Assembly (NCBI GenBank): GCA_021204375.1
Contig: JAJPZL010000249.1
Coordinates: forward strand, 1-19,248
DNA: 19,248 nucleotides
Reading direction: 5' to 3'
Origin: Bacteroides sp.
GTDB taxonomy: Bacteria > Bacteroidota > Bacteroidia > Bacteroidales > Bacteroidaceae
Shown here piece by piece: positions 147-18,606 of the stretch (its first letter is position 1; the number at the start of each line of letters is the position of its first letter). The translations under genes were made by a program, and so were the position numbers. Below the pieces are notes generated by a model. The model was not told the origin of the DNA. It searched no databases and saw only the letters and a list, made by a program, of their open reading frames with translations.

Positions 147-3100
147 TTACTGTACATCCAGCGCATCAAAAGCGAGGCCTTCCATCGTATCAGCGAAAAG
201 TATCACTTTATAGTATCCGGCATTGATATAGGTACCGGTCGTGGTACTCATCATCCGCCACTTTTCCGGGGCTTCCGGAAAAGTGATCTGGTCCTCTTTC
301 ATCACTACCCCTTTCGAATCGATGAACTGTAGTTTTACCGGTACCGGTTTGCCGGTGAGGTTCATATACTTAAACCGGAGGGCGTATACCTGGGCCAGCC
401 CAGTAGAGATATTCCATTCAATGGATTGACCTGTACCTTTTTCAAAGAAGACACCTTGTTGTTTGCGATGCTCTTTCTTTGTGTATTTTCCCTGGATCAC
501 TGCATTTTCCGCTTCGTAGGTTACATTGGGACGTTCATCCACATCTTCGGGCAGCATCTCTTTCGGGGTCTTTACGATCCGCTCTTTGGCAGCCTCTTCC
601 CAGTTCCAATCTACGGGGGCATACACCGTAGGTTTAGCAGCTACATCCGTAGTAGCTACGGCAATGGCAGAGATCAGGGCCTGCCCGGCTTTTACTTCCG
701 GGAAGGAGATAAGCAGTTCTCCTCCTTTTACCTGAACTTCTACTATTTTCTTAAGTGCTCCGTCGTGTCCGGCTTCGGCCCAGATATCGAGGTCATCGAT
801 CACTGTCTGCCCATTGATGGCTACATCGAAGATACGGAATCCTCCGCAATCGGTAGTCGCACTGCCACCGGTACCGTGCCACGGCTCGGTAAAGTAGAGT
901 TCGATCCGGTAGTTCCCGTCAGGTACCGGGAACCGGTAATTGAGTTTATGACGACCGAAACGGAAGCTCTGGAAAAGTTTCCAGTCGCGTACACCGCGGA
1001 TGGGATCGTATGTCACCCGCTGGCTGGCCAGATAGGGATCAAGTCTTTCGAAATCTTCGGCCCAGGAGCGGGAGAAGTGGGTATTATCCTGCAACCACTT
1101 TTGCCCGAACTCATCGGTATAGTCGTCTCCACCGCAATTGATACGGTACAGGTAGTTATATCCATCCTGGCCTTTCAACAGAGGTTTGGCTCCTTCATAC
1201 AACCGATGGAAATTAGGCGCTTCTTCCAATCCGTTGAGTACAATGAGGTCTTCTGCTACCGGTTTTCTTTTGTAGTAACCCACGGCACGGAGTACATTGT
1301 AACGGATATCCCGGTTCTCCCACATAAAGTGAGTACCGGTACCGTTGTTCTTTTTGGAGCGATAGAGTTCGTTATCGGCTAAATCGTTATAAAGCAGTAC
1401 CGAATCACAGTTGCTATATACTTCAACAGTAGCCCGGCGGCGACCGCTTTCAAAACGTTCCGGCCAGGTGTGGGATACGATATAGACCATCGGGTCTTTG
1501 GTGGGGCTTACATAGTTAGCCCGGTACATATAGTATACGTCGAGGGGTTCTTCCCAGGGAGAAACCAATCCTTTGTAGTTGAAAGGACCGACTTTATTCA
1601 AGACCCGGTAAGCTTCGTCCGGCTGGCGACGGCCGGGGTTATCGTGGCTACTGTATATCCACTGGAACTGTCCGCACACGCTATCACGTGCCTCTTCGGC
1701 GAGTCTGATCTTCATCTCCATCAACTGGCACATCCGGTCTTCGCTCCATACACCTTCCTGCTCAAAATCTCCGGGTTCCGTATGAAGATCCAGGCTTCTC
1801 CAGGCTCCATACTCTCCGTTAAGAAGTTGGTCGGGGCGGGCAAGTTCCCGGTTATATTGTGTAGGATCTCCTCCATAAGTGCCACTCCAGTTTTGTACTA
1901 CATTCCAATCGGTACCCTCTCCCCCGTTGCAGGTGGTGATCACCCGCATGGTACGGGCGGTAGGATCCATCTCGCGGATAATTTCGCTACACTCCTCGGC
2001 AAAGACACGAGGCAGGGTACTTTCGTTCTGCAAACCCCATATCACTACTGAAGGGGAGTTACGACGCTCTTTGACCCACTTGCGCAGTAGGATTTTAAAA
2101 TTCTCCCGAAACTCGGGTGTATCGTACCACACATGGGCCGAAAATTGTGTCCAGAAAAGGATCCCCTCTTCGTCCCAATAGTGCTGATAGTCGAGGTGGT
2201 GCGGCTGGTGTGCATCCCGGAAAGCATTGAAACCGGCAGCCTTCATCTGTTTGACACGGGCTTTTACCTGTTCGGCACTGAAGGCGTGGCTCTGCCCGAA
2301 CTGATGTTCGTATTCACATACTCCATTCAGGAATACCGGTTCTCCATTGAGGTAGAACCGTCCGTCCCCATCGTTCCGTTTCACCGGCCAGCTAATGGTA
2401 CGTACCCCGAAAGGAGTGGTGATTTCGTCGGTGGTCAGGGAATCTTTCTTGATCATGGTAGCTAGCTTGTAGAGGTATGGATGTTCCGTGCTCCACAATA
2501 CCGGGTCGGTGATGGGTGCCGACTGGCGGATCACCTTTGTTTCACCCGGAGCCAAAGTCAGCTTTTCGGTAAACCGCAATACCTGGATACCGAGGTCGTT
2601 ATTGAAACGGTTCACCAGCTCTACGGTCTCTGTCTCTTTGCCGTAATTCTTAACTTCGGTCTCTATATAAAGGGTAGAGGCATTATCATCGTTCCAGATA
2701 TGTACCCCGAAAGGTTCGATACGTACTTGGTCGGTAATTTCTAATCTTACGGGACGGAAGATACCCAGCGGCTGAGAGCCTTCACTGAATCCCCATTCGG
2801 AAGAGCAGCCACCACATACCCAAGGCATATCAGCTATCATCGCCGGATGTTCGGCTACTACTTCCAGTTCGTTCTCTGCGCCCGGACGGATGGCATCTGA
2901 TACATCGAGTGTCAACACTGTACGGCCTGCCGGATAGCGTCCCAGATCGACTCCGTTAAGCTTCACGGTGGCATAGGTACCGACTCCGTCAAAATAGAGG
3001 AAATAGCTTTTTCCCACCCCCGGATCATCCACTCGGAACTTTTTGGTATAGACTGCACTGCCGTGTAGGTTACCGTGGGTAAGCTGACGGTATCCGTAAT

Positions 3101-4331
3101 AGTCGTCCCAGTTATGGGGTATATTTACATACTGGGTATATTTCTCTTTTCCATCCTGCAAAATGGAGGTTTTCCAATTGTCATTGAGTTCTACGATCCC
3201 TCTGCGCTTCTTTACTTCGGGAGTAGGGAAACGAACGGCAGAACGTCCCATCGGTTTACTGGTCGCTACGGCTATACCCCGCTGATCAAATTTATTGGTC
3301 GCACAATAGAAGTGATAGACTACCCCGTCGTGGTTAATTACATAGCTTTTATGGGCAAAAAGATCGTCGTAATCCTTGCTGGGGATAATGAGGTCTTCTC
3401 CTTCCCAGTCGTACCAGTTAACCAGGTCGTAGCTACAGGCGAAGGTATTGTAGGCTTTATAGGTGCGTGAAGGCTCAAAAGCGGAGAAGTAGAACATCAC
3501 ATAAAGGTCGCCGAACTTCTGGATATGGGCATCTCCGGTAATGGTACCTTTGGATTCATGGGCAAAAACAGGATTTCCGGGATAGCGCTTCCACTTCTTC
3601 ATATCTTTGGAGAGGACAATCCCTACCCGCTCGGCTTTGAGTTCGTTCTCCGGATTGATCCCTCCGGCGTTGTAAAACATAACGAACGGATAGCCGAAAC
3701 GTTCTTCTTTGTCCCAATAGACAGTGCTTTTGTACTGGGTAATGTTCTCAAACCACTGTCCGTCCTTATCTTCAGGGGTCATAACAGGTTTATTAAGTGC
3801 CTCCCACTCTACCGGTTTACCCAGGTTCTTTTCATCCGTCCAGGCCAGACCGATCTTAAGCGGGCCGGCCTCGTATCCGGGATTCTCTCCCCCGATATAG
3901 GTCATCCAGTATTTTCCTTTGTAGGGATACAGATTGTAATTTCCTCCCCACTCCATATCCGGAAGGGCAGGAAATCCTCCGCGCTGGCTCTGGTCCCAGA
4001 TATTATCCCGGAAAGAGAGCACCCGGCCCAGCGTTTCCCACTCCAGCAGGTTTTCACTCCGGGCGATCCAGGTTTCGTATCCCCGACCGTCGTTACCCTC
4101 TTTTCCGTTGTATACCACGTAAGTCATATACCAGGTATCTTCGTGACGGAACACCGTAGGGCAGTCCATTTTGGAGTAGTTTGTTTCCGGAGCCACTACC
4201 AGTCCGTATTTATACGGTGTTTTTACCTGCTCGTAAATTTCGGACATCGTAGCCTGCGATACTTCACGCTGTGCCAAAGCAAACAGCGTAAAGCAGAACA
4301 AGCTATAGGTTAAGAGATGTCTCTTTTCCAT
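147..4331 (-). CDS. Bifunctional GH137 beta-L-arabinofuranosidase / GH2 beta-glucuronidase, with malectin-like and CBM-like C-terminus
   Basis: The protein has 1394 residues. The ATG at 4331 is chosen over an in-frame TTG three codons upstream, and it opens a signal peptide ending near FALAQ, so the enzyme is exported. Residues about 30-372 form a beta-propeller resembling GH137, with Glu154 (GYEAGP) and Glu234 (KAERVG) as candidate catalytic pair. A GH2 unit follows: jelly roll about 377-535, Ig-like domain, then TIM barrel with acid/base Glu770 in LQNES and nucleophile Glu840 in NGEYG. An N-Y-K-G motif (918-921) sits where beta-glucuronidases have the N-x-K that holds the uronate carboxylate. 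A malectin-like domain (about 1055-1230, starting YRINCGG) and a CBM6/35-like domain (about 1268-1394, starting YEAENA) close it. This is the layout of B. thetaiotaomicron BT0996, which in RG-II breakdown removes arabinofuranose from chain B and glucuronic acid from chain A. Specificity is inferred by analogy. Confidence 0.85.
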   Translation of the reverse strand: MEKRHLLTYSLFCFTLFALAQREVSQATMSEIYEQVKTPYKYGLVVAPETNYSKMDCPTVFRHEDTWYMTYVVYNGKEGNDGRGYETWIARSENLLEWETLGRVLSFRDNIWDQSQRGGFPALPDMEWGGNYNLYPYKGKYWMTYIGGENPGYEAGPLKIGLAWTDEKNLGKPVEWEALNKPVMTPEDKDGQWFENITQYKSTVYWDKEERFGYPFVMFYNAGGINPENELKAERVGIVLSKDMKKWKRYPGNPVFAHESKGTITGDAHIQKFGDLYVMFYFSAFEPSRTYKAYNTFACSYDLVNWYDWEGEDLIIPSKDYDDLFAHKSYVINHDGVVYHFYCATNKFDQRGIAVATSKPMGRSAVRFPTPEVKKRRGIVELNDNWKTSILQDGKEKYTQYVNIPHNWDDYYGYRQLTHGNLHGSAVYTKKFRVDDPGVGKSYFLYFDGVGTYATVKLNGVDLGRYPAGRTVLTLDVSDAIRPGAENELEVVAEHPAMIADMPWVCGGCSSEWGFSEGSQPLGIFRPVRLEITDQVRIEPFGVHIWNDDNASTLYIETEVKNYGKETETVELVNRFNNDLGIQVLRFTEKLTLAPGETKVIRQSAPITDPVLWSTEHPYLYKLATMIKKDSLTTDEITTPFGVRTISWPVKRNDGDGRFYLNGEPVFLNGVCEYEHQFGQSHAFSAEQVKARVKQMKAAGFNAFRDAHQPHHLDYQHYWDEEGILFWTQFSAHVWYDTPEFRENFKILLRKWVKERRNSPSVVIWGLQNESTLPRVFAEECSEIIREMDPTARTMRVITTCNGGEGTDWNVVQNWSGTYGGDPTQYNRELARPDQLLNGEYGAWRSLDLHTEPGDFEQEGVWSEDRMCQLMEMKIRLAEEARDSVCGQFQWIYSSHDNPGRRQPDEAYRVLNKVGPFNYKGLVSPWEEPLDVYYMYRANYVSPTKDPMVYIVSHTWPERFESGRRRATVEVYSNCDSVLLYNDLADNELYRSKKNNGTGTHFMWENRDIRYNVLRAVGYYKRKPVAEDLIVLNGLEEAPNFHRLYEGAKPLLKGQDGYNYLYRINCGGDDYTDEFGQKWLQDNTHFSRSWAEDFERLDPYLASQRVTYDPIRGVRDWKLFQSFRFGRHKLNYRFPVPDGNYRIELYFTEPWHGTGGSATTDCGGFRIFDVAINGQTVIDDLDIWAEAGHDGALKKIVEVQVKGGELLISFPEVKAGQALISAIAVATTDVAAKPTVYAPVDWNWEEAAKERIVKTPKEMLPEDVDERPNVTYEAENAVIQGKYTKKEHRKQQGVFFEKGTGQSIEWNISTGLAQVYALRFKYMNLTGKPVPVKLQFIDSKGVVMKEDQITFPEAPEKWRMMSTTTGTYINAGYYKVILFADTMEGLAFDALDVQ

Positions 4332-4379
4332 ATCAATCAACTAACAATTCTGAAATCTGTTTTTTATTCTCTCACGGGA

Positions 4380-7058
4380 TCAATAGAACAACCAGTCCAT
4401 GGTCTCTTCCGCACCGGCCAGCCCTGCATTACGCGGAGTAATATCAGCGACTGTAAAACCGGTTACCAGCAGATAACCTTTCGGCAGGAATAGGGTATGC
4501 TTACCGGCCGGGAAGCTGTAAGTATGAATGTCAGCCAGAGGCAGCCCTTCTAGCCGGATGGCATTAGTCAGGCGGGCTTCGGCCTGCCCGTGATCGTTGG
4601 CAGAAGCATCGGTTTCCAGCGTCGGCTTTTTGGCATATTTGCGTTGGTCGTCCCGGAAGTAACCCACCAGGATCTTCACCGGTTCTTTACTCTCAAACTC
4701 AATGGTCGTACCGCTGTTGCGTTGCTCATCCCCGTCAAAACGGTAAGCGGTCAACCCTTCCAGTTCTGGAGCCAGCTCTTCTACCTTTGCACCCGGAAGG
4801 TTGGTAAAGAGAGCAGAACCTTTAGTCAGTTTAACCGGCTGTAGTTTACTGATCAATGTTACATTTGCCTGAGGCAAAACAGTAATTTCAACTTCTTTTT
4901 CTTCCGATCCGCCTTCGGCACGGGCTTTCAGCAGAGCCAGGTTATTCCTAAAGTTTTCCAGTTCTGCTTCGTAATGTACCAGCATCTCTTCCCAGGTCTT
5001 GTTCTTGCCTCCGTCGCCACCGATGGGGATACGACGCTGGGAGGTCTGCATACTATTGGCATAGTAATAATGCTCTTTAGTCAACTCTACCAGCTTGCGG
5101 TAGTGTTCGAGACCTTGTTCCATCAGGGGGATCGCCTCTTCGAGGTTCTTTATATCTTTTCCCCACTGGTAATCGAGTACCAGTTTGGCTGCTTTTACTT
5201 TATAATTGAATGCGTAGGCAAATTCGCGGTAGCAGTGCATATCGTTACGCAATCTTTCAAACTCTGCTTTATTGGCTTTTGCTTTACCGGCTGCCTGTTC
5301 AATGGCTGCAACCGCATCGTCCCCATGCTGCACAGCTTCGGCAATAATATCAAGCGGCATTTCACCTACATGCGGCTCGTTTTTCCACTCTTTCTCTACA
5401 TATTCGATCAGCTTTTCGCCCTCCGGGCCACAGCTTTCATAAAATCCGGGATAGATGGTATATTTATAGGGATTAACCAACTGACTCATGAACATACCCA
5501 GCAACAATGTCTGACGGTTCCCCTCCGTAATACCAAAACGCCTCAACAACTTAGGAGCGATCTCTCCGGAGGCTTCATACGCATCCAGAATGGCTTTAGC
5601 AACTTCCGGAGTGGTTCCATAGAAATCGGCTAACTGACCGGTCCAGTATACAATTTCGTCCGCACGGTCACGGCGACAGTTCCAGGCGTAGCGTCCCCAC
5701 CCCTGGTACCAGATCCAGTCCCGGTACAATTGCAGTTCCCGTTCTCCGTTCGGTAGTTTATCAGCCGTATACGGCCAGTCCCAGTAAGAGGACTGCGGGT
5801 AGAGGTGCAGGGCATTGGCACCGTGAATATCGTGCATCGCATTCACTGTTTTTTGGATAAAGTCAGGCGATCCCCAACGGAAGGGTTCCAGGTTAGCCAG
5901 GATATGTACGTTACTGATATGGGTACTTCCCAGGGAGCTTAGGTCGGTATGTATCTTGGTCCACGGTCCGCGGGGCTCGTAGGTGGTTAAAGATTCACCG
6001 TTGTATTTATGCATGGTATAGAGGTTGCTGTACATAGGCAGTGCAGCATCCATTACCGCTTTACAGTCTGTATCGTGTGCACGAACCAGGATAGGGGGTT
6101 CGTCGGTACGTCCTAAGGCTTTGAGGCCATCTTTTACACCCGGGATGATGGTTTCGGTAAACCAGATCACATCCTCCTCATAGCTGGATATAGCCTCTCC
6201 CAGGCAGACCAGCAAACCCACATTGGGATACTTCTCCACAAAAGCAGCAATGGATTTACGGGTATAGTCACTGACAAGGGGAGTGATAGGCCGGTTGCGA
6301 TCCTGGGTTTTGAGCCCGTAATGTTCAGCAAAGGGTTTGGAAAGAAGAATATTGTAGAACATCTGGATCACAAAGATCCCTCTCTTATCGGCCTCTTCGG
6401 TGAGGAAAGAGAACATCTCTTCATTCATTTTAAAGGTTTCATCATCCACCTCCACGGCAAACGGATAATCACCCAGTTTCACCAGCGAAGCGAAGGGGTG
6501 ACCGTTCCAGAGATAGAGGGAGTTCATACGGTTCTCTACCAGCATATCCAGGTAGTTGATCCACTGCTCTTTATCGTAGAACCAGGGAAAACTTTCCGGG
6601 GTATAGGGATATTCGTATACGCCGCGTCCGGGCAGGTAAACCATCTTTTGCAGACCTATACAGGCTCCGCGCAGTACCATTTCGGGGGCATCGGTAAATG
6701 AAGCAGGAAAATCCAGGTTCTTCTGGTTCTTCAGGCGGTCTATCAGTTCACGGGCACCGTAAATAACCCCGCTGTCATCGTTCCCGGTAACAGTGGTTCT
6801 ATCGCCTTCGGTAGTGATATGGAACCCTTCGGCTTTTAAGGTAGTGTCGTTAGATAATTCCAGGCGGATGGTCTTTCCTTCGCCTTCGCCCATATTTACC
6901 CTATACCCGGCTTTCTCTAGAGCATCTTTCAGTTGGGAAGCTGCAAACTCTGCCCGTTTACCGGCATCGGGAGCTACTGTTATATGTACACGGGTCTTCC
7001 TACAACTGCACAGAAGACTTATCAGAAAGGTTAGTAATAGCAATCTTGATTTGAACAT
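4380..7058 (-). CDS. GH138-like alpha-D-galacturonidase lipoprotein
   Basis: The protein has 892 residues and an ATG start. It begins with a hydrophobic signal and a lipobox ending at Cys19 (LCSC). Residues +2 and +3 are Arg-Lys, not the acidic stretch that marks surface export in Bacteroides, so periplasmic anchoring is likely. An N-terminal alpha/beta domain (about 22-120) resembles those in front of GH67 and GH20 enzymes. A TIM-barrel-like centre (about 125-450) follows, then a helical region (about 470-720) and a C-terminal beta domain. Glu288 (CLGEA) and Glu355 (YNGES) are good catalytic candidates: they keep the spacing I recall for the two glutamates of characterised GH138 enzymes. Its position just upstream of the GH137-GH2 gene (48-base gap) mirrors BT0997 next to BT0996. 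GH138 removes the alpha-linked galacturonic acid from the chain A rhamnose of RG-II. A generic GH67-N or GH20-domain annotation is the alternative. Confidence 0.72.
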   Translation of the reverse strand: MFKSRLLLLTFLISLLCSCRKTRVHITVAPDAGKRAEFAASQLKDALEKAGYRVNMGEGEGKTIRLELSNDTTLKAEGFHITTEGDRTTVTGNDDSGVIYGARELIDRLKNQKNLDFPASFTDAPEMVLRGACIGLQKMVYLPGRGVYEYPYTPESFPWFYDKEQWINYLDMLVENRMNSLYLWNGHPFASLVKLGDYPFAVEVDDETFKMNEEMFSFLTEEADKRGIFVIQMFYNILLSKPFAEHYGLKTQDRNRPITPLVSDYTRKSIAAFVEKYPNVGLLVCLGEAISSYEEDVIWFTETIIPGVKDGLKALGRTDEPPILVRAHDTDCKAVMDAALPMYSNLYTMHKYNGESLTTYEPRGPWTKIHTDLSSLGSTHISNVHILANLEPFRWGSPDFIQKTVNAMHDIHGANALHLYPQSSYWDWPYTADKLPNGERELQLYRDWIWYQGWGRYAWNCRRDRADEIVYWTGQLADFYGTTPEVAKAILDAYEASGEIAPKLLRRFGITEGNRQTLLLGMFMSQLVNPYKYTIYPGFYESCGPEGEKLIEYVEKEWKNEPHVGEMPLDIIAEAVQHGDDAVAAIEQAAGKAKANKAEFERLRNDMHCYREFAYAFNYKVKAAKLVLDYQWGKDIKNLEEAIPLMEQGLEHYRKLVELTKEHYYYANSMQTSQRRIPIGGDGGKNKTWEEMLVHYEAELENFRNNLALLKARAEGGSEEKEVEITVLPQANVTLISKLQPVKLTKGSALFTNLPGAKVEELAPELEGLTAYRFDGDEQRNSGTTIEFESKEPVKILVGYFRDDQRKYAKKPTLETDASANDHGQAEARLTNAIRLEGLPLADIHTYSFPAGKHTLFLPKGYLLVTGFTVADITPRNAGLAGAEETMDWLFY

Positions 7059-7130: not shown

Positions 7131-8597
7131 TTATTTACGGAAAGAGAACTTTGCCAGCAGGAAACCGACCAGGAAGATAACGATGGTACCAAATACGATA
7201 GTTAGATTGGCATGGAGCGGACTGGCAAACTCACTCAGGAAACCATCTTTGAACATAATGGGTGAAAGACTCATCCACATCACTACGATCACACCACAGA
7301 TAGTACCGATAATGGCATCAATATTACGGGCTTTGCGGGAGATATATCCCAACAGGAAGAGTCCCAGCATGCCCCCGCTAAAGATGGAAGAGAGTGCCCA
7401 CCAGGCGTCCAGGGCACTGTTCACCTGTAAGAAAGCAATCGCCACAAAGATACCGATGATACCAATGACTGCGTTGTAGATATAGATCATCCGTACGGAT
7501 TGCTTATCGGTAGCATCTTTTTTGAAAAAACGCTGGTAATAGTCGGTGAGTACAATGGTCGCTGAACTGGTGATACTGGTAGCCACCGTACTCATACCGG
7601 CTGCAAAGATAGAAGCGATCAATAGTCCGGTAAGACCGGCCGGCAACTGGTTCACAATAAAGTAGGGAAATACAAAATCGCCGTCAATGCCTTCGGGTAG
7701 TAATCCCGGATGGATTTTATAGTAGGTATAGAGTCCGGTACCGATCAGGAAAAAGATAGCGGAAACCGGGATAAAGAGATATCCTCCGAACAGGGCTGAG
7801 AATTTGGCACTCTTATCATCTTTGGCAGTGAGGTACCGTTGTACATAGTTCTGGTCAATACCGTAATTCTGTAAGTTGATAAAAATACCATAGACCAGAC
7901 ACACCCAGAAAGTAGACTCCGTCAGGCTGGAACCAAAACTACCCAATGAGAATTTATTCTCCGCTATAGCTATATCAAAGAACTGCTTTGATCCTTCGGG
8001 CATTCCCCAGAGAAGTACCCCCGTACATACCAGCGCGCCTCCGATCAGGATAAATCCCTGGATCGCTTCCGTCCAGATTACCGCCTTGATCCCTCCCAGC
8101 ATAGCATAAAGGGTAATAGCGATCGAGGTACAGACAATGATGGTTTTAATATCCCACCCCAGCAGGGCATTCATCGGGAGTGCCAGCAGGTAGAGGATGG
8201 ATCCCATACGGGCGATCTGGGTCAGCAGGTAACAGGTAGAGGCATAGATACGGGCCCAGGGACCGAAACGCCTTTCCAAAAAGGAATAAGCCGATACACT
8301 CCCATGGCTCCGGTAGAACGGCACAAAATAGCGGGCGGCAAAATAGGAGGCAATGGGAATGGAGAGCCCGAATACAAAGGCATTCCAGTCGCTCATATAG
8401 GCTTTTCCGGGATAAGCTAAGTAGCTGATACTACTTACGTAGGTGGCAAAGATACTCATACCTACCACCCAACCGGGCAGGGATCGCCCGGCAGCCGTCA
8501 TGTTATCACTGGAACGTTTCTTTTCAAAGAAGGAGCATCCGAAAAGAACGACCCCTCCGGTAAATACAAGGAAAACAATAATATCAAGTATGGTCAT
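7131..8597 (-). CDS. Sodium:solute symporter (SSS family)
   Basis: The protein has 488 residues counted from the ATG at 8597 (MTILDIIVFL). An in-frame start 17 codons upstream would add a polar leader before the first membrane segment and is less likely. About 13 hydrophobic segments run through the whole length, including GWVVGMSIFATYVSSISYLA and a C-terminal helix before the final KFSFRK, which fits the usual SSS fold. The family couples sodium entry to uptake of sugars, amino acids or organic acids across the inner membrane, and the substrate cannot be read from sequence. The aldolase gene lies upstream with a 229-base gap and the GH138-like gene downstream with a 72-base gap. SSS carriers next to DapA/NanA-family aldolases often import 2-keto-3-deoxy acids such as sialic acid. 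Here a sugar acid released from RG-II is an inferred substrate. Confidence 0.85.
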   Translation of the reverse strand: MTILDIIVFLVFTGGVVLFGCSFFEKKRSSDNMTAAGRSLPGWVVGMSIFATYVSSISYLAYPGKAYMSDWNAFVFGLSIPIASYFAARYFVPFYRSHGSVSAYSFLERRFGPWARIYASTCYLLTQIARMGSILYLLALPMNALLGWDIKTIIVCTSIAITLYAMLGGIKAVIWTEAIQGFILIGGALVCTGVLLWGMPEGSKQFFDIAIAENKFSLGSFGSSLTESTFWVCLVYGIFINLQNYGIDQNYVQRYLTAKDDKSAKFSALFGGYLFIPVSAIFFLIGTGLYTYYKIHPGLLPEGIDGDFVFPYFIVNQLPAGLTGLLIASIFAAGMSTVATSITSSATIVLTDYYQRFFKKDATDKQSVRMIYIYNAVIGIIGIFVAIAFLQVNSALDAWWALSSIFSGGMLGLFLLGYISRKARNIDAIIGTICGVIVVMWMSLSPIMFKDGFLSEFASPLHANLTIVFGTIVIFLVGFLLAKFSFRK

Positions 8598-8660
8598 AGA
8601 TTTGTGTTTTTTAGGTAAACAGGAAATCAAATTAATGATCCGGATCAATTATCCTTTTTT

Positions 8661-8768
8661 TGTAGAGACGCATATTTGCGTCTCATCCGCGTCCCTATGC
8701 CTACCACATAAATAAAAAGACGTAGATATGGAGACATAGATATGGAGACGCAAATATGCGTCTCTACA
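8661..8768. repeat. 108-bp element bounded by perfect 24-bp inverted repeats
   Basis: Positions 8661-8684 and 8745-8768 are exact reverse complements over 24 bases, separated by 60 bases. Each arm is itself a hairpin: GAGACGCA and TGCGTCTC (8 bp) around a 4-base centre. The arms can therefore fold separately or pair with each other. It occupies the gap between the aldolase and symporter genes and encodes no protein. Similar GTAGAGACGC... palindromes are, from memory, scattered in many Bacteroidota genomes, so a REP-like or MITE-like non-autonomous element is the best reading. It could also act as a transcription terminator or RNA-processing site. Confidence 0.75.
8723..8749. repeat. 13-bp tandem direct repeat inside the palindromic element
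   Basis: The 13-mer TAGATATGGAGAC occurs at 8723-8735 and again at 8737-8749 with one base between. The second copy runs into the right-hand arm of the 24-bp inverted repeat, so it looks like a local duplication of the inner edge of that arm. With only two copies it is not a CRISPR or a long tandem array. Confidence 0.6.
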
Positions 8769-8801
8769 GAAGATGGGGTATGATTACCGGCAAAGAGTTA
8801 C

Positions 8802-8821
8802 TCCCTTATACCTGTAAGGGA
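8802..8821 (-). terminator. Hairpin just past the aldolase stop codon
   Basis: TCCCTTA (8802-8808) and TAAGGGA (8815-8821) form a perfect 7-bp stem with a 6-base loop, five bases beyond the aldolase stop codon on the minus strand. The bases that follow in the transcript are not a clean U-tract. It may be a weak terminator or a 3'-end stabilising hairpin working together with the larger palindromes at 8745-8768. Confidence 0.35.
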
Positions 8822-8826
8822 ATGGG

Positions 8827-9744
8827 TCAGAATTGCAAAGCCTGCAATGCCTGACGGATCCGTTCTTTTTCAGGCTCTTCAAATTTATAGAACGGTGCAG
8901 CCAGGTGATCGTTACAAACACCCAGTATGCCCAATACACACTTCACTCCTTTCAGGTAACTACTGCCATACTTTCCAACCGTATAGATAGTCATAGAGAT
9001 CTGCATAATCGTTTGCTGAAGCCGGCGCACCTCCTGTAAGTCTCCCCTTTCGGCAACGTTATAGAGATTCACATACAACTCCGGGAACATATTGGCTCCT
9101 CCGTTAATCCCCCCGTGACCGCCCATTAGTACGATCTCACCGGTGATCTCTTCCGGGCCAACCAACATCGAGAATCCGGGAATATCTTTCATGGCAGTCA
9201 TCACACTCTGGAAATAGACCGTATTGGCCGAACTATCCTTAAAACCGATCACCTTGGGATTCTCCGCAATACGGCGGATGGTATCCGGTGCGAAATTCAC
9301 CTTGGTATGGCTCGGCATATTATAGAGGAAAAGAGGCAAAGGCAACTGTTCTACCAGATCCAGGTAAAACTCGGCCAGCTCTACCTGGCTCGGGGTATAG
9401 TAGTAAGGAGGTGCCGAGACTACGGCATCCGCCCCGTTCTCTGCTGCCAGACTGGCCAGGTTGATACTCTCTGTGATGCTGGTATCAGAGATACATACCA
9501 GTAACGGAAGCCGTCCCCTGTTAATACGAGCCGTTTCCCGGATCATCTGCCGGCGCAACTCGTAACTGATACTCTGTGCTTCACCGGTAGTCCCCAGGAT
9601 AAAGAGCCCGTGTACTCCGCCGGCAATCAGCCGTTCAATAAGGCGTTCCAATCCTTCTACATCCAGTGTGTCGTTATCCAGCAAAGGGGTTACCAGTGGT
9701 GGAATAATTCCCCGAAGCGGGGCGTTTTTTATTAATCTGCTCAT
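8827..9744 (-). CDS. DapA/NanA-family pyruvate-type aldolase
   Basis: The 305-residue protein has the length and motifs of the class I DapA/N-acetylneuraminate lyase family. GTTGE (51-55) binds the keto-acid carboxylate, Tyr141 (LYNMPS) is the catalytic tyrosine, and Lys169 (VIGFKDSS) is the Schiff-base lysine. GGINGGANMFP (210-220) is the family's late glycine-rich loop. There is no signal peptide, so it is cytoplasmic. In true dihydrodipicolinate synthase an arginine follows YNxPS to hold aspartate semialdehyde. Here that place is His146 (PSHTK), which argues against lysine biosynthesis and for a catabolic 2-keto-3-deoxy acid aldolase. Its place between RG-II hydrolases and a sodium symporter suggests a substrate such as Kdo, Dha or another keto-deoxy sugar acid, giving pyruvate and a shorter aldehyde. 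That substrate is inferred. Palindromic elements flank the gene on both sides. Confidence 0.85.
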   Translation of the reverse strand: MSRLIKNAPLRGIIPPLVTPLLDNDTLDVEGLERLIERLIAGGVHGLFILGTTGEAQSISYELRRQMIRETARINRGRLPLLVCISDTSITESINLASLAAENGADAVVSAPPYYYTPSQVELAEFYLDLVEQLPLPLFLYNMPSHTKVNFAPDTIRRIAENPKVIGFKDSSANTVYFQSVMTAMKDIPGFSMLVGPEEITGEIVLMGGHGGINGGANMFPELYVNLYNVAERGDLQEVRRLQQTIMQISMTIYTVGKYGSSYLKGVKCVLGILGVCNDHLAAPFYKFEEPEKERIRQALQALQF

Positions 9745-10124: not shown

Positions 10125-12305
10125 TTATTTCTCTATTTCCGAGGATTCATACCCGATCACCAGTTCATCGCTACCTTCCAGCCATACCCGGTAGTTAATA
10201 CCGGAAAGATGCTCCGCTTCTCCACGACTCACCGTAGGTTTGGAGCCACTGGTAAAGTTCACATACCCGGCACCCTCCGTAGCTTTTACTTTGATAGTGT
10301 GCTGGTCCATATATACTTTAATATCTCCACCAGGCGTAGGAACATTCCCTTCCATCCATTCCAGACCTCCCAGTACAGGAGTTACGGAGAACTCTTTATA
10401 TCCCTCTTTGACCGGACGAACTCCCAGGTAGTATTTACCCAGCAGATAGATAGGGCTGGCTCCCCAGGCATGGCATAAACTCTTTCCATACGGACGTCCG
10501 TACATAGCGAGATGCTCTCTTCCGCTCTCTTCCGGATTGTATTTTTCCCAGAACGAGGTAGCGCCTTCGCGTAGCATACCGCCCCAGTAATCCTTTATCT
10601 CCTTCATAACAGCTGTCTGCTCACCCATCACACACAACGCTTCCAGTTCGTAAAAACGCATATAAGGGGTGGTGATCTTCAGGATATCGTCATTCAGCAG
10701 TACGCTCTCTTTGATCTGTTGTTGCTGCTCCGGTGTCAGGTAGTTAAAGAACACAGCAAACATATTGGCATACCGGGTTACCGATTCGCTCTGCTCTCCA
10801 CTGATACGGTTGTGTACCAGTGCCTGTTTAGTTTCATTCCAGAAGGCAGGAACTAGTTTCGCATGCAGATCGGCAGCCAGTTTTTGGTAGGTTGCCTGAT
10901 CCCGTCCCTCTTCTGCCAACTGTGCACAGAGGGCCATTGTTTCGAGGCCCTTACAGAAAAGCACCTGTTCAAAAGAGAGTTCACCCTTCTTATCTAAATA
11001 GCCATCGGCCCAGTCTACAAATACCCAGTCGCCGGTAAGTCCTTCTACCATGCCGTTGGCATTGGTACGGCCTAGAACATACTCCATCATCGTCTGCATA
11101 CGGGGATAGATATGTTTGACAAAATCAATATCGCCGCTATATAAATAGTAATCGTAAATACTCAGGAACCAGTAGAAGGTGTAATCCATAATGGTATTGG
11201 AGTGGCTCGTTACCGGGTCTTTGCCCCGAAGGAGCCAGATGGTACGTTTGACCGATTCACTATCAAAGAAGAGATAGTAGTTCATCAGGTAACTCTGGAT
11301 AGCATCTCCGCTCCATACCCAACGGTCGCGTTTAATACCGTCGATAAAGAACTCACGGGTAGTAAGGTGCATGGTATAGGCACCGATATTCCAGATGCGG
11401 TTCAACTCTTCGTCGCTGGAACGGAAGCTGCCCCGGTATGCTTCGGGAAGATACTCATAGAGCATACTTACTTTATCCAGTTGTACACCCGGATTCCGGG
11501 TGACATAGATATACCGGTAAGCTTTGGAGTTCTCCAGCGTAAAATCTCCGTCAAGCGAATAACTTTTATTCAAAGAGAGGTCGGTTACCTGAGTGCTGCT
11601 CACCGCAAGTTTATCGAGTGTCTCGCAATATTCGGTATCCAGTGCCTCCTCTTTACTTTCACCGTAATAAATAGTGATCACTCCTTCGCCGGAAAGCCTC
11701 TGCAAACGGATAAACCCGAAAGTCTCCCGGCCGAAGTCGATCAGTTCACCTCCCGGCACAGTTTCTACCGCCACCGCTTCCATCGGATCTACTTCCAACT
11801 TAAATCGGGAAGGAGGATTACCAATATCATTAAAATTCCAGGATCCGGCAGCCATATAAATAGTAGCGGATGTATCACTGGCTTTTCCACTCTCATCGAT
11901 CCACTCTTTATCCTCAAATGTTACATTCCAGGAATTATCGGTATGGATGGTCTTTCCCTTTACAAAAAGAGCAGGAGGCGTAGTGGTATTATAAACCTTG
12001 ATATTGAGACTATGCTCTCCGGCAGGCATGGTCATTTTCTGCGGCATACCGAATTGCAATTTACCATTGAGCTTTACATTGTAGCGACCTTCCACTGCAA
12101 TTTCAATCTCTTCCGGCTGAGCCAGGGAGATCTTTTTGCTGAACTCTAACACTACATAGTGGCTATCGGTTTTCCAGAAAGGAGGGAAAAAGGCTCCCCG
12201 CTCGGTACGACGATTGTTCATCTGATTACCCAGCCATATTTCGTAATCACCGGGATACCAGATCCATGTCGGACTATTTCCCAGGGGGGATAATGTTTGC
12301 TCCAT
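10125..12305 (-). CDS. Alpha-L-rhamnosidase, GH78 family, no signal peptide
   Basis: The 726-residue protein has N-terminal beta-sandwich domains (about 1-290), an (alpha/alpha)6 barrel (about 295-635) and a C-terminal beta domain, the standard GH78 plan. Asp327 in IDGIKRDRWVWSGDA is the probable general acid and Glu587 in SFWEKYN the probable base. Their spacing matches what I recall for B. thetaiotaomicron BtRha78A (BT1001). The glutamate of the common RDE version of the first motif is replaced by Arg, as expected for the subgroup that uses aspartate as acid. Unlike the neighbouring hydrolases it starts MEQTLSPLGN with no export signal. The short gap to the MFS stop (22 bases) leaves no room for one, so it may act in the cytoplasm on imported rhamnosides. 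In RG-II it would remove a side-chain rhamnose, probably from chain B. Exact linkage is not visible. Confidence 0.85.
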   Translation of the reverse strand: MEQTLSPLGNSPTWIWYPGDYEIWLGNQMNNRRTERGAFFPPFWKTDSHYVVLEFSKKISLAQPEEIEIAVEGRYNVKLNGKLQFGMPQKMTMPAGEHSLNIKVYNTTTPPALFVKGKTIHTDNSWNVTFEDKEWIDESGKASDTSATIYMAAGSWNFNDIGNPPSRFKLEVDPMEAVAVETVPGGELIDFGRETFGFIRLQRLSGEGVITIYYGESKEEALDTEYCETLDKLAVSSTQVTDLSLNKSYSLDGDFTLENSKAYRYIYVTRNPGVQLDKVSMLYEYLPEAYRGSFRSSDEELNRIWNIGAYTMHLTTREFFIDGIKRDRWVWSGDAIQSYLMNYYLFFDSESVKRTIWLLRGKDPVTSHSNTIMDYTFYWFLSIYDYYLYSGDIDFVKHIYPRMQTMMEYVLGRTNANGMVEGLTGDWVFVDWADGYLDKKGELSFEQVLFCKGLETMALCAQLAEEGRDQATYQKLAADLHAKLVPAFWNETKQALVHNRISGEQSESVTRYANMFAVFFNYLTPEQQQQIKESVLLNDDILKITTPYMRFYELEALCVMGEQTAVMKEIKDYWGGMLREGATSFWEKYNPEESGREHLAMYGRPYGKSLCHAWGASPIYLLGKYYLGVRPVKEGYKEFSVTPVLGGLEWMEGNVPTPGGDIKVYMDQHTIKVKATEGAGYVNFTSGSKPTVSRGEAEHLSGINYRVWLEGSDELVIGYESSEIEK

Positions 12306-12327: not shown

Positions 12328-13695
12328 TTATATATCTTTTCCGTATCTCTCTTCGGTGATCTGCTGCAAGGTCTTACCGCGGGTTTTGGGTGTCCAGATC
12401 AGCCCGACGATAAGTGCAATAAAGAGCAGCCCGATCATCAGGTAAGCAGCCAGGTTGAATCCTTCGCCGTGTGCCCCGTAAATATGGATAAAGGCAAAAC
12501 CCCACAAGGCCGAGGCACTCCGGACGATAAAGAACATAACACCCTGTGCCGCAGCGCGGTACCTGGCAGGGAAAAGCTCCGACGACCACAGGGCATAGAA
12601 GGCCTGCACCGACATACCTCCCTGAATCCCCCAGAGAATGGTGAAAGTCCACAGGGCGGTAAGGTTCTTTACACCCACAAAAACCAGGATGAACCAGGCC
12701 ACGATCCCTATTCCCGTACCGAAGAAGTAGAGCCACCGTTGATTCACCTTATCGACCAGCATGGCAAAACCGAAATAGGTTACCGCAACGATAATTAGCC
12801 ACTGTACGGCGGAAAGCATATTAGCCTGTCCGTTCGAAAGTCCGCCGGCGGTTTCATACATGTGCTGCTGGAAGAATCCCATTACGCTGGCCACAAAGTT
12901 CCAGGTGAGGTAAATACCTGCCAGGAAGATAATGGTACGGACATTGATCTTATTGGTGAACAGGGAACCGAACGAAGAAAAGACACTGGGTTGTTTTTCT
13001 TTGGAACGGGCGAGTTTAGCCTCTTCCCACTCCTTTGACTCGTTAAGCTTGCGTTGAAGGTTCCAGGCGATGAAGGCCACAATAAACAGGGAACCGAAAA
13101 TGATACGGCTACTGAATACATTGACCGCTTCCATGCTGGCATCCGCACCTAAGAAGATCGCCGCGACTTGTTGCACATAGCCGAACAGGACTCCTGCCGT
13201 ACCACTCGACTGACCGGGAGCCAGCAGCATTCCCAGAATCAGGATGATGGCCGGGCCTACGCCCCAGGCAAACTGGGAGATCCCGATGTTCCGTCCGCGG
13301 TTGCCCACTTCCGAATTCTCAGAAATATAGGTCCACGAGGCAGGAACACCCGCACCTACCGAAATACCTGTGATCAGGAATCCAAGCAGCAGCATCGGGA
13401 AATTGACCGTGAACATAATAATAGCCACCCCCAGCATATAGATAAGCATATTGTAGGTATAGATGGTTTTGCGGCCATATTTGTCGGCCAGGAAACCGCC
13501 GATGATAGCACCGATAGCAGCACCGAAGCAGTTTACACTGATGGCGTTGAGCCAGCCGAGGTTTCCTTCGGTAAGGCCGAGATAATTTTGCCAGAGGGTC
13601 AATCCACTCGCTCCGGCTACGATCGCACCCGCATCTAAGTAATTGGTAAGCGATACCGCGATGGTACTTTTTAAACTTCCACTTTTGTGTTCCAT
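12328..13695 (-). CDS. MFS transporter, sugar-porter-like
   Basis: The 455-residue protein shows about 12 hydrophobic segments and the major facilitator loop motif between helices 2 and 3 (GGFLADKYGRK, near residue 65). A matching second-half motif is PARYRAAAQG. It ends with a sugar-porter-like TPKTRGKTL and a short cytoplasmic tail. The central loop about residues 210-245 is charged (KLNESKEWEEAKLARSK), as in many MFS carriers. The ATG at 13695 is the natural start. It lies 58 bases after the GH141-like gene and 22 bases before the GH78 gene, so all three are probably co-transcribed. It should bring a mono- or oligosaccharide made by the periplasmic enzymes across the inner membrane. Pairing with a GH78 that lacks a signal peptide suggests a rhamnose-containing product or rhamnose itself, which is inference. 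Confidence 0.85.
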   Translation of the reverse strand: MEHKSGSLKSTIAVSLTNYLDAGAIVAGASGLTLWQNYLGLTEGNLGWLNAISVNCFGAAIGAIIGGFLADKYGRKTIYTYNMLIYMLGVAIIMFTVNFPMLLLGFLITGISVGAGVPASWTYISENSEVGNRGRNIGISQFAWGVGPAIILILGMLLAPGQSSGTAGVLFGYVQQVAAIFLGADASMEAVNVFSSRIIFGSLFIVAFIAWNLQRKLNESKEWEEAKLARSKEKQPSVFSSFGSLFTNKINVRTIIFLAGIYLTWNFVASVMGFFQQHMYETAGGLSNGQANMLSAVQWLIIVAVTYFGFAMLVDKVNQRWLYFFGTGIGIVAWFILVFVGVKNLTALWTFTILWGIQGGMSVQAFYALWSSELFPARYRAAAQGVMFFIVRSASALWGFAFIHIYGAHGEGFNLAAYLMIGLLFIALIVGLIWTPKTRGKTLQQITEERYGKDI

Positions 13696-13753: not shown

Positions 13754-15595
13754 CTATTTTTGTTTCAGGTGCTTAAAAGCATCCTGCAACCCGGCTTTGT
13801 TTTTGATCTCTTCGCTGACCGCAGGGCCGTTGTTCTCCCATACATTACCGGGGCCAATGGCATTCTGCAAATATTTTTCGGCCTCTGTCCAGTTATCCTT
13901 TACTGTGATTCCTGCCGAACCTTCGTCGGTATAGAGATAGAACCAGTGTTCCGGATCGTGTACGTAAGAGGGTGTATAGATGGTATGTATACAGTTCTCC
14001 GTTACATAGCTGTTGGGTTGTGCACCCAGCGTATAGACCCCTGCCGTATCGTACATATGTTTGGCATAATTATAAATAAGATTGGCATGTACCCGGTTAT
14101 TCTGCATGCAGTTAACGGTGCGGGTCCACCCCCATCCCAGGCTGATCCCTGAATAGGAGACTTCGCTGATATCGTTGTGCTCAATGGTTATATCTCTTAC
14201 ATAGCCTGCACAAACGGCTACACAACCCCAATCTTCGTTGGTGATATCAGTAAAGACATTATTGGATACGGTAAGATGCGAACAGACCTCCCGCAGATCG
14301 GCCGGATCATACGGGATATGGGTTTCCAGCGCCCGTGGAGAGAAACTTCCCGCTACCAGCCCGTTCCCTGTGATATCCCGGAAAATACACCCTTCTACCT
14401 TTCCTCCGTATGTGCCATAGACATAATCCAGACCGGAATAACCGATATGCTCAAACTGGCAACCGGTAAAATCAATATGATTGGCTGAATGTATCTGTAC
14501 GGCAGCAGCCGGGCGGCCCAGCCATCCCTGGTTATCTAATTTATGATTCCCGTAATTACGGATGATCTGGGGACGAAGTTTATATCCATCCACCAGATAC
14601 ATACCGGCCTGCAAAGGTACATGTCCCTTTTCGGAGGGACGCATCCAGGTAGAATGATTAAAGGCAATCCCTTCAAAACGCACATACTCCACCGGGCGAT
14701 CCAGTGTTCCCTGTACCTGTACTAGTGTTTCTACAGCCGGAACGATCACTTCCGCACTGCGTATATCTTCTCCGGGACGGGGGTAGTAATAGAGTTTACG
14801 GCTATCAATATCGTGGTACCACTCTCCCGGCTCATCCAATAACTCCATGGCATTTGTCAGATAAAAAGCAGAGTTACGCCCATTATCTGTGACTATCGGA
14901 CGCGGCCAGGGGTGCTCAAACTGGATACGGCTCTCCGGATCGTGAAAACATACCGCTGCCGAATCTCCGTGGATCTCAATGGATTTGATACGGAGGTTGG
15001 CAATACACCACATTTCATGCAGTACCATTTCGGCATATTTAGCCCGCTGTATCTTTTTTACTACGGGGGTAGGCACCCACAGGATCTGATTATCCGGATC
15101 ATTATTGATAATGCGGTACATCTGCTCGAAGTCGGATACATCCCGGGCACGGATCGCTTTGGAACCGTTGACCCACATCTGGCGAAAATCCAGCGGCCGC
15201 CCGTTGAAACGGGGTACATCGGCTACCCAGAGTTTACCCTGTGCTTTTTTCCAGCCGGTGATCGTCACTCCTCCGCTTACGGAAGCCTTCTCTCCCTCTG
15301 CCGAACGGATCACGGTTGGTGACTCAGGCGTTCCACTATCTTCCGGCCGTACAAAAACCGGTTCATAGAGGGAGTGGCGTCCTCCCAGTAGATTTATATA
15401 AACTCCTCCTCCAACAGAGGGATCATTCAAACGTCTTAATTCGCGGGCCTGCCTGAGCGCGGAGGTCAACGTAGCTTTAGGCTCCTGACGGGTTCCGGGA
15501 TTGGCGTCATTTCCTGCGGGCGACACCCAGATATCAGCAGCAGCTACCGGCAGAGCCAGGCATAGTAACAAAAGAGATTTTAGTCTTCTTTTCAT
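13754..15595 (-). CDS. GH141-like right-handed beta-helix glycosidase
   Basis: The ATG at 15595 gives 613 residues and a clear signal peptide (MKRRLKSLLLLCLALPVAAA). A longer reading from 15631 would overlap the GH127 gene and place residues before the signal. The mature start DIWVSPAGNDANPGT is the usual opening of secreted parallel beta-helix enzymes. Repeated coils follow (for example HIDFTGCQFEHIGYSGLDYV, ITIEHNDISEVSYSGISLGW) to about residue 560. The size and its neighbours (GH127 upstream, MFS and GH78 downstream) match BT1002, the GH141 alpha-L-fucosidase that removes fucose from RG-II chain A. GH141 also includes xylanases, and beta-helix families are easily confused, so the fold is secure while the activity rests on context. 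I cannot assign catalytic acids with confidence. The stop is followed by a 58-base gap. Confidence 0.72.
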   Translation of the reverse strand: MKRRLKSLLLLCLALPVAAADIWVSPAGNDANPGTRQEPKATLTSALRQARELRRLNDPSVGGGVYINLLGGRHSLYEPVFVRPEDSGTPESPTVIRSAEGEKASVSGGVTITGWKKAQGKLWVADVPRFNGRPLDFRQMWVNGSKAIRARDVSDFEQMYRIINNDPDNQILWVPTPVVKKIQRAKYAEMVLHEMWCIANLRIKSIEIHGDSAAVCFHDPESRIQFEHPWPRPIVTDNGRNSAFYLTNAMELLDEPGEWYHDIDSRKLYYYPRPGEDIRSAEVIVPAVETLVQVQGTLDRPVEYVRFEGIAFNHSTWMRPSEKGHVPLQAGMYLVDGYKLRPQIIRNYGNHKLDNQGWLGRPAAAVQIHSANHIDFTGCQFEHIGYSGLDYVYGTYGGKVEGCIFRDITGNGLVAGSFSPRALETHIPYDPADLREVCSHLTVSNNVFTDITNEDWGCVAVCAGYVRDITIEHNDISEVSYSGISLGWGWTRTVNCMQNNRVHANLIYNYAKHMYDTAGVYTLGAQPNSYVTENCIHTIYTPSYVHDPEHWFYLYTDEGSAGITVKDNWTEAEKYLQNAIGPGNVWENNGPAVSEEIKNKAGLQDAFKHLKQK

Positions 15596-15609
15596 GTTGT
15601 TCCGTTCTA

Positions 15610-17819: not shown

Positions 17820-17827
17820 TATCTTTG
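17820..17827 (+). promoter_or_regulatory. Bacteroides-type -7 promoter element
   Basis: TATCTTTG matches the Bacteroidota sigma-ABfr -7 consensus TAnnTTTG exactly. It lies 15 bases before the ATG of the regulator remnant at 17843, which implies a very short leader. No strong TTTG is seen 19-21 bases upstream, where the -33 element is expected. Confidence 0.5.
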
Positions 17828-17842
17828 CCAAAAACAGACCTT

Positions 17843-18606
17843 ATGGAATATATATATTGCCAGAGTTGCGGAATACTGCTAGAAAACAGTACCCAGTACG
17901 GAACGCACGCAGACCATTCACCCACCAGTGAATATTGCAGTTACTGCTATCAGGAAGGAGAATTTACCGAAGATTGCACCATGGAGGAGATGATCCTTCA
18001 CTGTGTAGAGTACCTGGATGAATTCAACGAAGGCAGCCGGACCCACTTTTCTCGGGAAGAAGCGATCCGGGAGATGCGTAAACACTTCCCTACCCTGAAG
18101 AGATGGCAACAGAAACAGGAGACTGAGAACTATTACCACCAGGCCGTTAATAAAGTGGTAGACTATATAAACACCCATCTGTTTGAAGCGATAGACCTGA
18201 AAAAGTTATCGGATATCTCCCATATATCTCGCTGTCACTTTGTACATATCCATAACTTATAAAAGCCGGGAGAATACTTTCTGAATCTCTCGTTTGATGA
18301 TCCGCTGATCACACGGATGGACCAATTCCGTTATTACTTTTGCCACACGATCAAACATCCCGTAAAGCCGACCGGCAAGGTAGGCACTATAACAATTGGA
18401 GGAGGAACAAATGCTGGATTCCGCTCGGTAGGCCATTATCCTGGCTCTTTAACCTATATGAATAGATCTATACCGACTGGCTCCCGGTAAGTAAGTAACT
18501 ATCTGCTGCGTGACTCTTTTACTTTAGAAATGTATATGGAGAATCTCTAAGTACTACAGATAAAGGGAATGATATAACAGAGTATGTACTAGTCCGGAAA
18601 AAGTAG
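17843..18606 (+). pseudogene. Decayed AraC-family regulator with N-terminal zinc ribbon and effector-binding remnant
   Basis: From the ATG at 17843 (an upstream TTG at 17825 is less likely) the frame codes 139 residues and stops at 18260-18262. Cys6-x2-Cys9 and Cys32-x2-Cys35 form a zinc ribbon. Residues 101-139 are the first half of an AraC DNA-binding domain (VVDYINTHLFEAIDLKKLSD...SRCHF). Coding resemblance continues beyond the stop. Positions 18263-18460 give YFLNLSFDDPLITRMDQFRY..., typical of the AraC/GyrI-like effector-binding domain. Another frame at 18466-18492 gives IYTDWLPVS, the first frame then gives YLLRDSFTLEMYMENL up to a stop at 18548, and a shifted frame ends at the TAG at 18604-18606. 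The second helix-turn-helix and the first half of the effector domain are missing, so an internal deletion plus several frameshifts is the simplest reading. A short truncated protein might still be made. Confidence 0.8.

Follow-up and report, generated by a model that had tools for sequence, protein, structure and literature searches.

Kdo (3-deoxy-D-manno-oct-2-ulosonic acid) is a component of rhamnogalacturonan II (RG-II) and of most Gram-negative lipopolysaccharides. The described systems most similar to the one reported here are those of sialic acid use, in which NanA, a PF00701 Schiff-base aldolase acting on a 2-keto-3-deoxy acid, is combined with an importer, SiaT or NanT, the former being a member of the sodium:solute symporter (SSS) family. 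In vitro, cleavage of Kdo has been reported for NanA of Escherichia coli and for human NPL (PMC13220900), and N-acetylneuraminate lyases (NALs) condense D-arabinose with pyruvate to Kdo, with Kdo synthesis reported for Lactobacillus antri (PMC4016182). Because E. coli NanA and human NPL act in this way, the Kdo cleavage proposed below lies within the known reach of the family. Here we describe an aldolase gene and an SSS symporter gene on contig JAJPZL010000249.1 of a Bacteroides genome (G000) that is 79% complete; the entire contig, 19,248 nt, is the window analysed. The two genes probably encode a Kdo aldolase and a Kdo symporter, a reading in which substrate, direction and order of the pathway are taken from gene neighbours and residues.

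An earlier note on this DNA had placed the pair within an RG-II locus, and the profile searches agree: three neighbouring genes score above curated NCBIfam cut-offs for RG-II hydrolases, and a GH141 gene (PF21231) lends further support (Table 1). The aldolase gene adjoins the symporter gene, as that note had also described, both being on the minus strand with the aldolase upstream.

The aldolase, of 305 residues, can be assigned to the PF00701 class I aldolases by its profile match together with K169, Y141, T52 and T53. When aligned with NanA and DapA of E. coli, it shows the complete Schiff-base site claimed in the earlier note, consisting of T52, T53, Y115, Y141 and K169. The residue alignment comprised E. 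coli NanA, DapA and YagE and relatives of the window aldolase, including 89 rows at least 58% identical to it (one Coprobacter gene, L019 and L113, was entered twice among these rows and among the 107 loci). Lys169, Tyr141, Tyr115 and Thr52 are conserved in all 89 rows and Thr53 in 88, with Ser in the other. H146 of the window aldolase occupies the position of DapA Arg138, the residue for aspartate semialdehyde. Residues G196-P197-E198-E199 form a motif, Gly-Pro-Glu-Glu (GPEE), that is found in 89 of the 89 rows where NanA reads Gly-Tyr-Asp-Glu. Glu199 aligns with Glu192 of NanA, and the sugar-binding Glu is thus NanA-like; in the L. antri NAL the counterpart of Glu192 binds O8/O9 of N-acetylneuraminic acid (Neu5Ac) (PMC4016182).

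These residues also bear on the name under which such proteins are deposited. Membership in PF00701, PDB entry 4xky and the source names of some relatives ('dihydrodipicolinate synthase family protein' or '4-hydroxy-tetrahydrodipicolinate synthase' among the best 120 of 7984) would make the enzyme a dihydrodipicolinate synthase (DHDPS), but there is next to no chance that this is its function. The position of Arg138 holds His in all 89 close rows and Arg in 12 of the 13 distant paralogues (L100-L112), the protein reaches 179.6 bits with the dapA model TIGR00674, below the cut-off of 206.15, so that a true DapA was rejected, and the gene keeps a fixed pairing with a symporter. The sequences suggest that the DHDPS-named group is misnamed. 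Aldolase relatives in genus g230 (L198-L201) carry Arg at position 146 together with GPEQ, have no close SSS in the pieces seen, and likely serve another function.

The symporter reading frame encodes 505 residues from a TTG at 8648, the ATG at 8597 being the likelier start. It scores above the TIGR00813 cut-off for the SSS family (Table 1), and its closest solved structure is SiaT (5nv9, 247 bits), which holds the carboxylate of Neu5Ac via Ser60, Thr63 and Arg135 (PMC5931594). S72, S75 and R147 of the window symporter align with these ligands, and the three positions read S/S/R in 74 of 74 symporter relatives, Thr63 thus being replaced by Ser. Other SiaT contacts to Neu5Ac are changed: Thr58 is Tyr in all 74 relatives, Gln82 is Leu in 72 and Ile in 2, and Phe243 is Gly and Gln250 is Asn in 73 of the 74, one being unread at each position. 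Phe78 is conserved in all 74 and Asn247 in 72. The changed contacts would suit a keto acid with a shorter tail and no N-acetyl group, and are no proof of one.

The pairing of the two genes is widely conserved. Among 80 named related loci (the best 80 of 291 confirmed stretches, many of them shortened by contig ends), a symporter relative follows the aldolase on the same strand and within 1.5 kb, measured between midpoints, in 74, and this pairing is not due to chance. Any of five RG-II markers is found in 43 of these loci, FucI in 16, a relative of the window's major facilitator superfamily (MFS) transporter near the aldolase in 16, and a BT_1020-type gene in 14. In a sample of 247 genomes of the same order, the aldolase (at least 44% identity and at least 288 bits, the next match scoring 153 bits) occurs in 17, of which 12 carry GPEE and the other five a divergent motif, GTEL or GSEL. 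The 16 aldolase pieces from other genomes of the order include nine with a close SSS, three with an SSS of about 40% identity, three with a different MFS protein, and that of Coprobacter with neither. A different MFS protein stands beside the aldolase where the SSS is absent at L115, L118, L119 and L238 (the L115, L119 and L238 copies being 64-71% identical to that of L118), and may be an alternative importer.

The nature of the substrate is suggested by the genes that accompany the pair in other genomes. Aldol cleavage of Kdo gives pyruvate and D-arabinose; FucI accepts both L-fucose and D-arabinose, and FucI and a ribulokinase together would lead from D-arabinose to D-ribulose 5-phosphate. 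Among the natural 2-keto-3-deoxy acids considered, only Kdo gives D-arabinose on aldol cleavage. The gene order in Coprobacter secundus is AraB-type ribulokinase (NF003154 692 bits, cut-off 428), LacI, aldolase, YhcH, FucI, SusC and SusD. In genome G008 the aldolase occurs with SSS and FucI, LacI lies upstream, and the AraB-type kinase (671 bits) is of a divergent form; G791 has LacI, aldolase, SSS, YhcH, FucI and SusC; and G647 and G678 carry the cassette genes of G791 rearranged, with an additional FG-GAP protein. In family f142, outside the class of the window, aldolase, SSS, a sialidase-like BNR protein, an FGGY pentulose kinase (TIGR01315 680-704 bits, cut-off 408.7) and FucI occur together in three of the five matching genomes; as for the remaining two, FucI is 24 kb away in G466 and there is none in G579. 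Two different kinase types thus adjoin the same aldolase, which is otherwise hard to explain and indicates a ribulose intermediate. FucI lies within about 13.5 kb of the aldolase in 5 of the 17 aldolase genomes (G111, G166, G019, G008, G211), with a p of about 1.5e-7 under random placement, a value that ignores kinship (G111 and G211 belong to the same genus) and gene clustering.

The partner genes also help to weigh two other substrates. PF00701 includes enzymes that cleave or dehydrate further keto-deoxy acids, and RG-II has L-galactose, aceric acid and apiose, which brings in 2-keto-3-deoxygluconate, L-2-keto-3-deoxy-galactonate or a breakdown product of aceric acid or apiose; such a substrate is improbable, since the partner genes match a pentose product and no sugar-acid dehydratase or dehydrogenase is annotated among the selected recurrent neighbours. 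A lyase for sialic acid, similar to the group 3 NALs and served by a sialic acid symporter, appears more improbable still. It is true that SiaT is the best solved relative of the symporter, that NanA cleaves Neu5Ac as well as Kdo, and that K-D-S-S and G-P-E-E of the aldolase resemble K-N-S-S and G-P-D-E of group 3 NALs; but a true NanA was rejected by model score (112.6 versus 382 and 138 versus 281 bits on two curated nanA models), the Gln82 and Phe243 positions of SiaT are changed, and RG-II contains no sialic acid. Moreover, the annotated partners are FucI and ribulokinase, with no NanE or NanK among the annotated neighbours, although no search was aimed at either.

A pathway for Kdo would also need its release from RG-II, and chain C of RG-II is rhamnose-Kdo. 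A sialidase-like BNR protein of 368 residues adjoins a divergent aldolase and matches the carboxy-terminal part of GH78 fusions in the RG-II loci of G133 (54%) and G165 (47%). Coordinates of the GH78-BNR fusions are L161:3582-8198 and L164:4790-8572; G019 also has a match to such a fusion, read across two pieces, and the window's own genome has a 51% BNR match in a 1234-residue frame on contig 239 (G000:C239:1009-2031). The GH33-like BNR family is present in 9 of the 12 GPEE genomes versus 20 of the 235 other genomes of the order. According to a metaproteome paper, the hydrolase for Kdo in RG-II is GH33 (PMC11214529), and chain C terminates in rhamnose (PMC12282258); the GH78-BNR fusion is a candidate two-step enzyme that would suit this chain. 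At L124, L126, L128, L202 and L203, a stand-alone BNR protein, an SSS and a more distant aldolase lie side by side. The substrate at the first three of these loci may differ, because the aldolase motif there is GTEL.

In the proposed pathway, periplasmic enzymes would free Kdo from chain C, perhaps via the GH78-sialidase-like fusion, and the SSS symporter would take it up together with sodium. Lys169 of the aldolase would then form a Schiff base with Kdo, cleavage between C3 and C4 would yield pyruvate and D-arabinose, and L-fucose/D-arabinose isomerase and ribulokinase would convert the latter to D-ribulose 5-phosphate. We define the Kdo-use module as a sialidase-like ketosidase, an SSS or MFS importer, YhcH, the Kdo aldolase, the D-arabinose isomerase and one of the two ribulokinase types; in none of the loci seen are all of these parts at one place.

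Co-occurrence with Dha-hydrolase genes (Dha, 3-deoxy-D-lyxo-heptulosaric acid), a check put forward in the earlier note, was found. Strong matches to the BT_1020 family (PF24067, at least 284 bits, excluding weaker matches in G008, G014 and G195) are present in 9 of the 12 GPEE-aldolase genomes versus 5 of the 235 others, and GH138 in 8 of the 12 versus 3 of the 235 (Fisher p 5e-11 and 3e-10, respectively, ignoring kinship). The five are G165, G006 and G133, together with G022 and G176, which carry the divergent aldolase. This co-occurrence and the conserved pairing fit the hedged form of the original proposal, in which the pair takes up and breaks down Kdo, Dha or a related keto-deoxy acid. 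Dha as the main substrate, with Kdo a side substrate or unused, is nevertheless unlikely. BT_1020-type genes do occur close to the aldolase at 14 of the 80 related loci as well as co-occurring with it, Dha shares its keto-deoxy acid end with Kdo, and the carboxylate ligands of the SSS are retained; yet the fragment expected from Dha would be no substrate for FucI or ribulokinase, both of which recur beside the aldolase, and sialidase-like BNR proteins, of the type named as RG-II Kdo hydrolase, stand beside it in several lineages. With FucI, ribulokinases and sialidase-like proteins as partners, the evidence favours Kdo over Dha as the likely substrate, and the enzyme may have an additional role on Dha.

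The aldolase is also found away from RG-II genes, and its tree suggests how the two settings are related. After thinning to 66 of 139 rows, and with long-branch warnings for NanA, YagE, DapA and L103, a 39-row clade (96/93) contains the window, RG-II and Prevotella copies along with those from the cassettes of f142, Coprobacter, G791, G678 and G008. This clade is separate from DapA, NanA and YagE, and remoter relatives (f128, f136, the GTEL group, L204 and L238) fall outside it. Because one clade joins RG-II and cassette copies, the RG-II copies seem to be recruited versions of a cassette with a wider distribution. In the FucI tree (32 of 55 rows after thinning, excluding rows with fewer than 480 aligned residues, hits with stops, and L019), one branch (96/89) holds nine cassette copies, from G791, G166, G019, G008, G647, G678 and three f142 genomes, plus one copy of G006, and excludes the fuc-operon copy of G166; the Prevotella cassette copies derive from the ordinary FucI type. 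In this tree 'far' only marks copies whose fetched piece holds no aldolase; the label is unreliable for L151 and L158, since in their genomes (G272 and G283) a FucI does lie close to the aldolase, at L043 and L062. On balance, we lean towards a movable Kdo-use cassette of Bacteroidota that has been taken into RG-II loci of gut Bacteroidales, with the DHDPS-named family being Kdo aldolases.

Within the window's own genus, the aldolase is matched in 19 of 158 genomes, some of these genomes probably being the same as those of the named loci. The surroundings of 15 same-genus aldolases show GH127 plus GH141 in four (G694, G693, G710, G730) and the FucI cassette in three (G791, G647, G678).

Several observations weigh against a Kdo pathway tied to RG-II. 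Neither RG-II GH127/GH141 nor FucI stands beside the aldolase in 8 of those 15 surroundings, and 37 of the 80 related loci have none of the five RG-II markers in the fetched DNA, many of these loci ending early. The aldolase clade is not confined to RG-II loci; a purely RG-II-bound role was rejected because the clade also occurs in cassettes with no RG-II genes in the fetched DNA. Conversely, three genomes, G165 (of the same genus), G006 and G133, combine GH138 and BT_1020 with the lack of any aldolase of the clade; they make up 3 of the 14 genomes of the order in which BT_1020 is strongly matched, and the aldolase-SSS pair is therefore an optional part of an RG-II system. The window itself contains no FucI, kinase or YhcH, and a fuculokinase query found no match in the window's genome. 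That genome has an L-fucose/D-arabinose isomerase on another contig; a ribulokinase did not turn up in it, in the absence of a search aimed at one. YhcH is weak evidence in any case, because the Kdo cleavage assays of PMC13220900 needed no added mutarotase.

The presence of FucI also admits a simpler reading, since RG-II contains L-fucose and a FucI near RG-II loci can serve fucose. G133 has FucI, a class II aldolase, an FGGY kinase and an MFS transporter beside its RG-II genes, and its FucI looks to serve fucose; this fuc operon weakens FucI beside the aldolase as a standalone proof. G166 (Coprobacter) and G791 each have two full-length FucI genes, one per genome in the cassette, and the non-cassette copy of G166 is on contig 5 with matches to FucA and FucK. 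A second copy is no proof, because G663 and G725 also carry two FucI genes with none beside the aldolase in the fetched piece. The FucA-like class of PF00596, a class name that reflects a reading of scores, is absent from 16 of the 17 genomes in which FucI lies close to the aldolase; as support this was set aside, since 7 of 9 comparison genomes also have no FucA class.

The novelty of the activity is likewise limited by the Kdo cleavage already reported for E. coli NanA and human NPL (PMC13220900). The earlier note knew of no characterised counterpart, and this stands in so far as the open-licence literature searched, which does not extend to the main 2017 RG-II paper, names no dedicated Kdo breakdown gene. 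It falls short in that 4xky is a solved structure and that NanA and NPL cleave Kdo.

Table 1. Annotated genes of the cluster, from profile searches of the open reading frames of the window
Gene product	Position	Strand	Profile evidence
Aceric acid hydrolase of RG-II, GH127 type	15610..17694	-	NF049879 1100.1 bits, cut-off 950
GH141-type enzyme	13754..15631	-	PF21231 244.5 bits
MFS transporter, second carrier of the cluster	12328..13695	-	PF07690, PF00083
Alpha-L-rhamnosidase-like protein (GH78)	10125..12305	-	PF21209, PF17389
DHDPS/NAL-family class I aldolase, proposed Kdo aldolase (Kdo -> pyruvate + D-arabinose)	8827..9744	-	PF00701 200.9 bits, cut-off 22.1
SSS symporter, proposed Kdo importer	7131..8648	-	PF00474 160.9 bits; TIGR00813 219 bits, cut-off 184
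Alpha-D-galacturonidase of RG-II, GH138 type	4380..7058	-	NF049878 1459.4 bits, cut-off 1300
Beta-D-glucuronidase/beta-L-arabinofuranosidase of RG-II, GH2/GH137 type	147..4340	-	NF049877 2534.2 bits, cut-off 1800

All eight annotated genes of the cluster are on the minus strand, and no SusC/SusD pair is among the annotated genes of the window, which is the whole contig. Between the aldolase and the SSS gene (8649-8826) there are two stretches with palindromic repeats, seen by eye, that are similar to GAGACGCA and TGCGTCTC. At 17825-18262 is a zinc-ribbon protein whose carboxy-terminal part looks like the beginning of an AraC-type regulator (a weak AryK match) before a stop; it is possibly a truncated regulator. 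The same genome has another aldolase-SSS pair (L002; G000:C50:262-1116), 26% and 42% identical to the window pair and with the motif GWAA. In distant lineages, a large FG-GAP repeat protein lies near the aldolase-SSS pair (L194:5594-7828, L228:10509-12464 and L229:7606-9609). A second, unrelated SSS (24-25% identical) is found with small unannotated genes within RG-II loci (L166:7654-9213, L230:17968-19539 and L232:18202-19773), and perhaps imports another rare RG-II sugar.

This analysis names candidate genes for the uptake of Kdo, its cleavage and the next two steps, so that one end of RG-II use becomes directly assayable. If the proposal is true, Kdo breakdown would have dedicated genes, and the proteins of a family that currently goes by the name dihydrodipicolinate synthase, one of them with its structure solved, would be Kdo aldolases.

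Compared with known systems, the window pair shares with NanA and SiaT the conserved counterpart of NanA Glu192, the carboxylate ligands of SiaT and, in some relatives, YhcH. It differs in that the aldolase scores below the nanA cut-offs and belongs to a separate clade, the partners are FucI and ribulokinase, and Gln82 and Phe243 of SiaT are changed. The group 3 NALs of L. antri and L. sakei have the KxSS and GP[D/E]E blocks in common with the window aldolase, but read GSSGE and IGGT where the latter has GTTGE and INGG (PMC4016182). The most similar solved protein is PDB 4xky, which matches the window aldolase with 497 bits over residues 7-303 (next best 137) and has the same GPEE and YNMP-x-HT motifs. 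It was deposited as a dihydrodipicolinate synthase, a name that is probably wrong because the DapA Arg (Arg138) is absent and the GPEE motif is present. Its source organism is presumably B. thetaiotaomicron; at the best relative of its gene, 97% identical, there is an aldolase-SSS pair and no hydrolase of the reference set within 40 kb. Finally, the reaction proposed here is the same as that of 3-deoxy-octulosonate aldolase, EC 4.1.2.23, the likeness being one of reaction.

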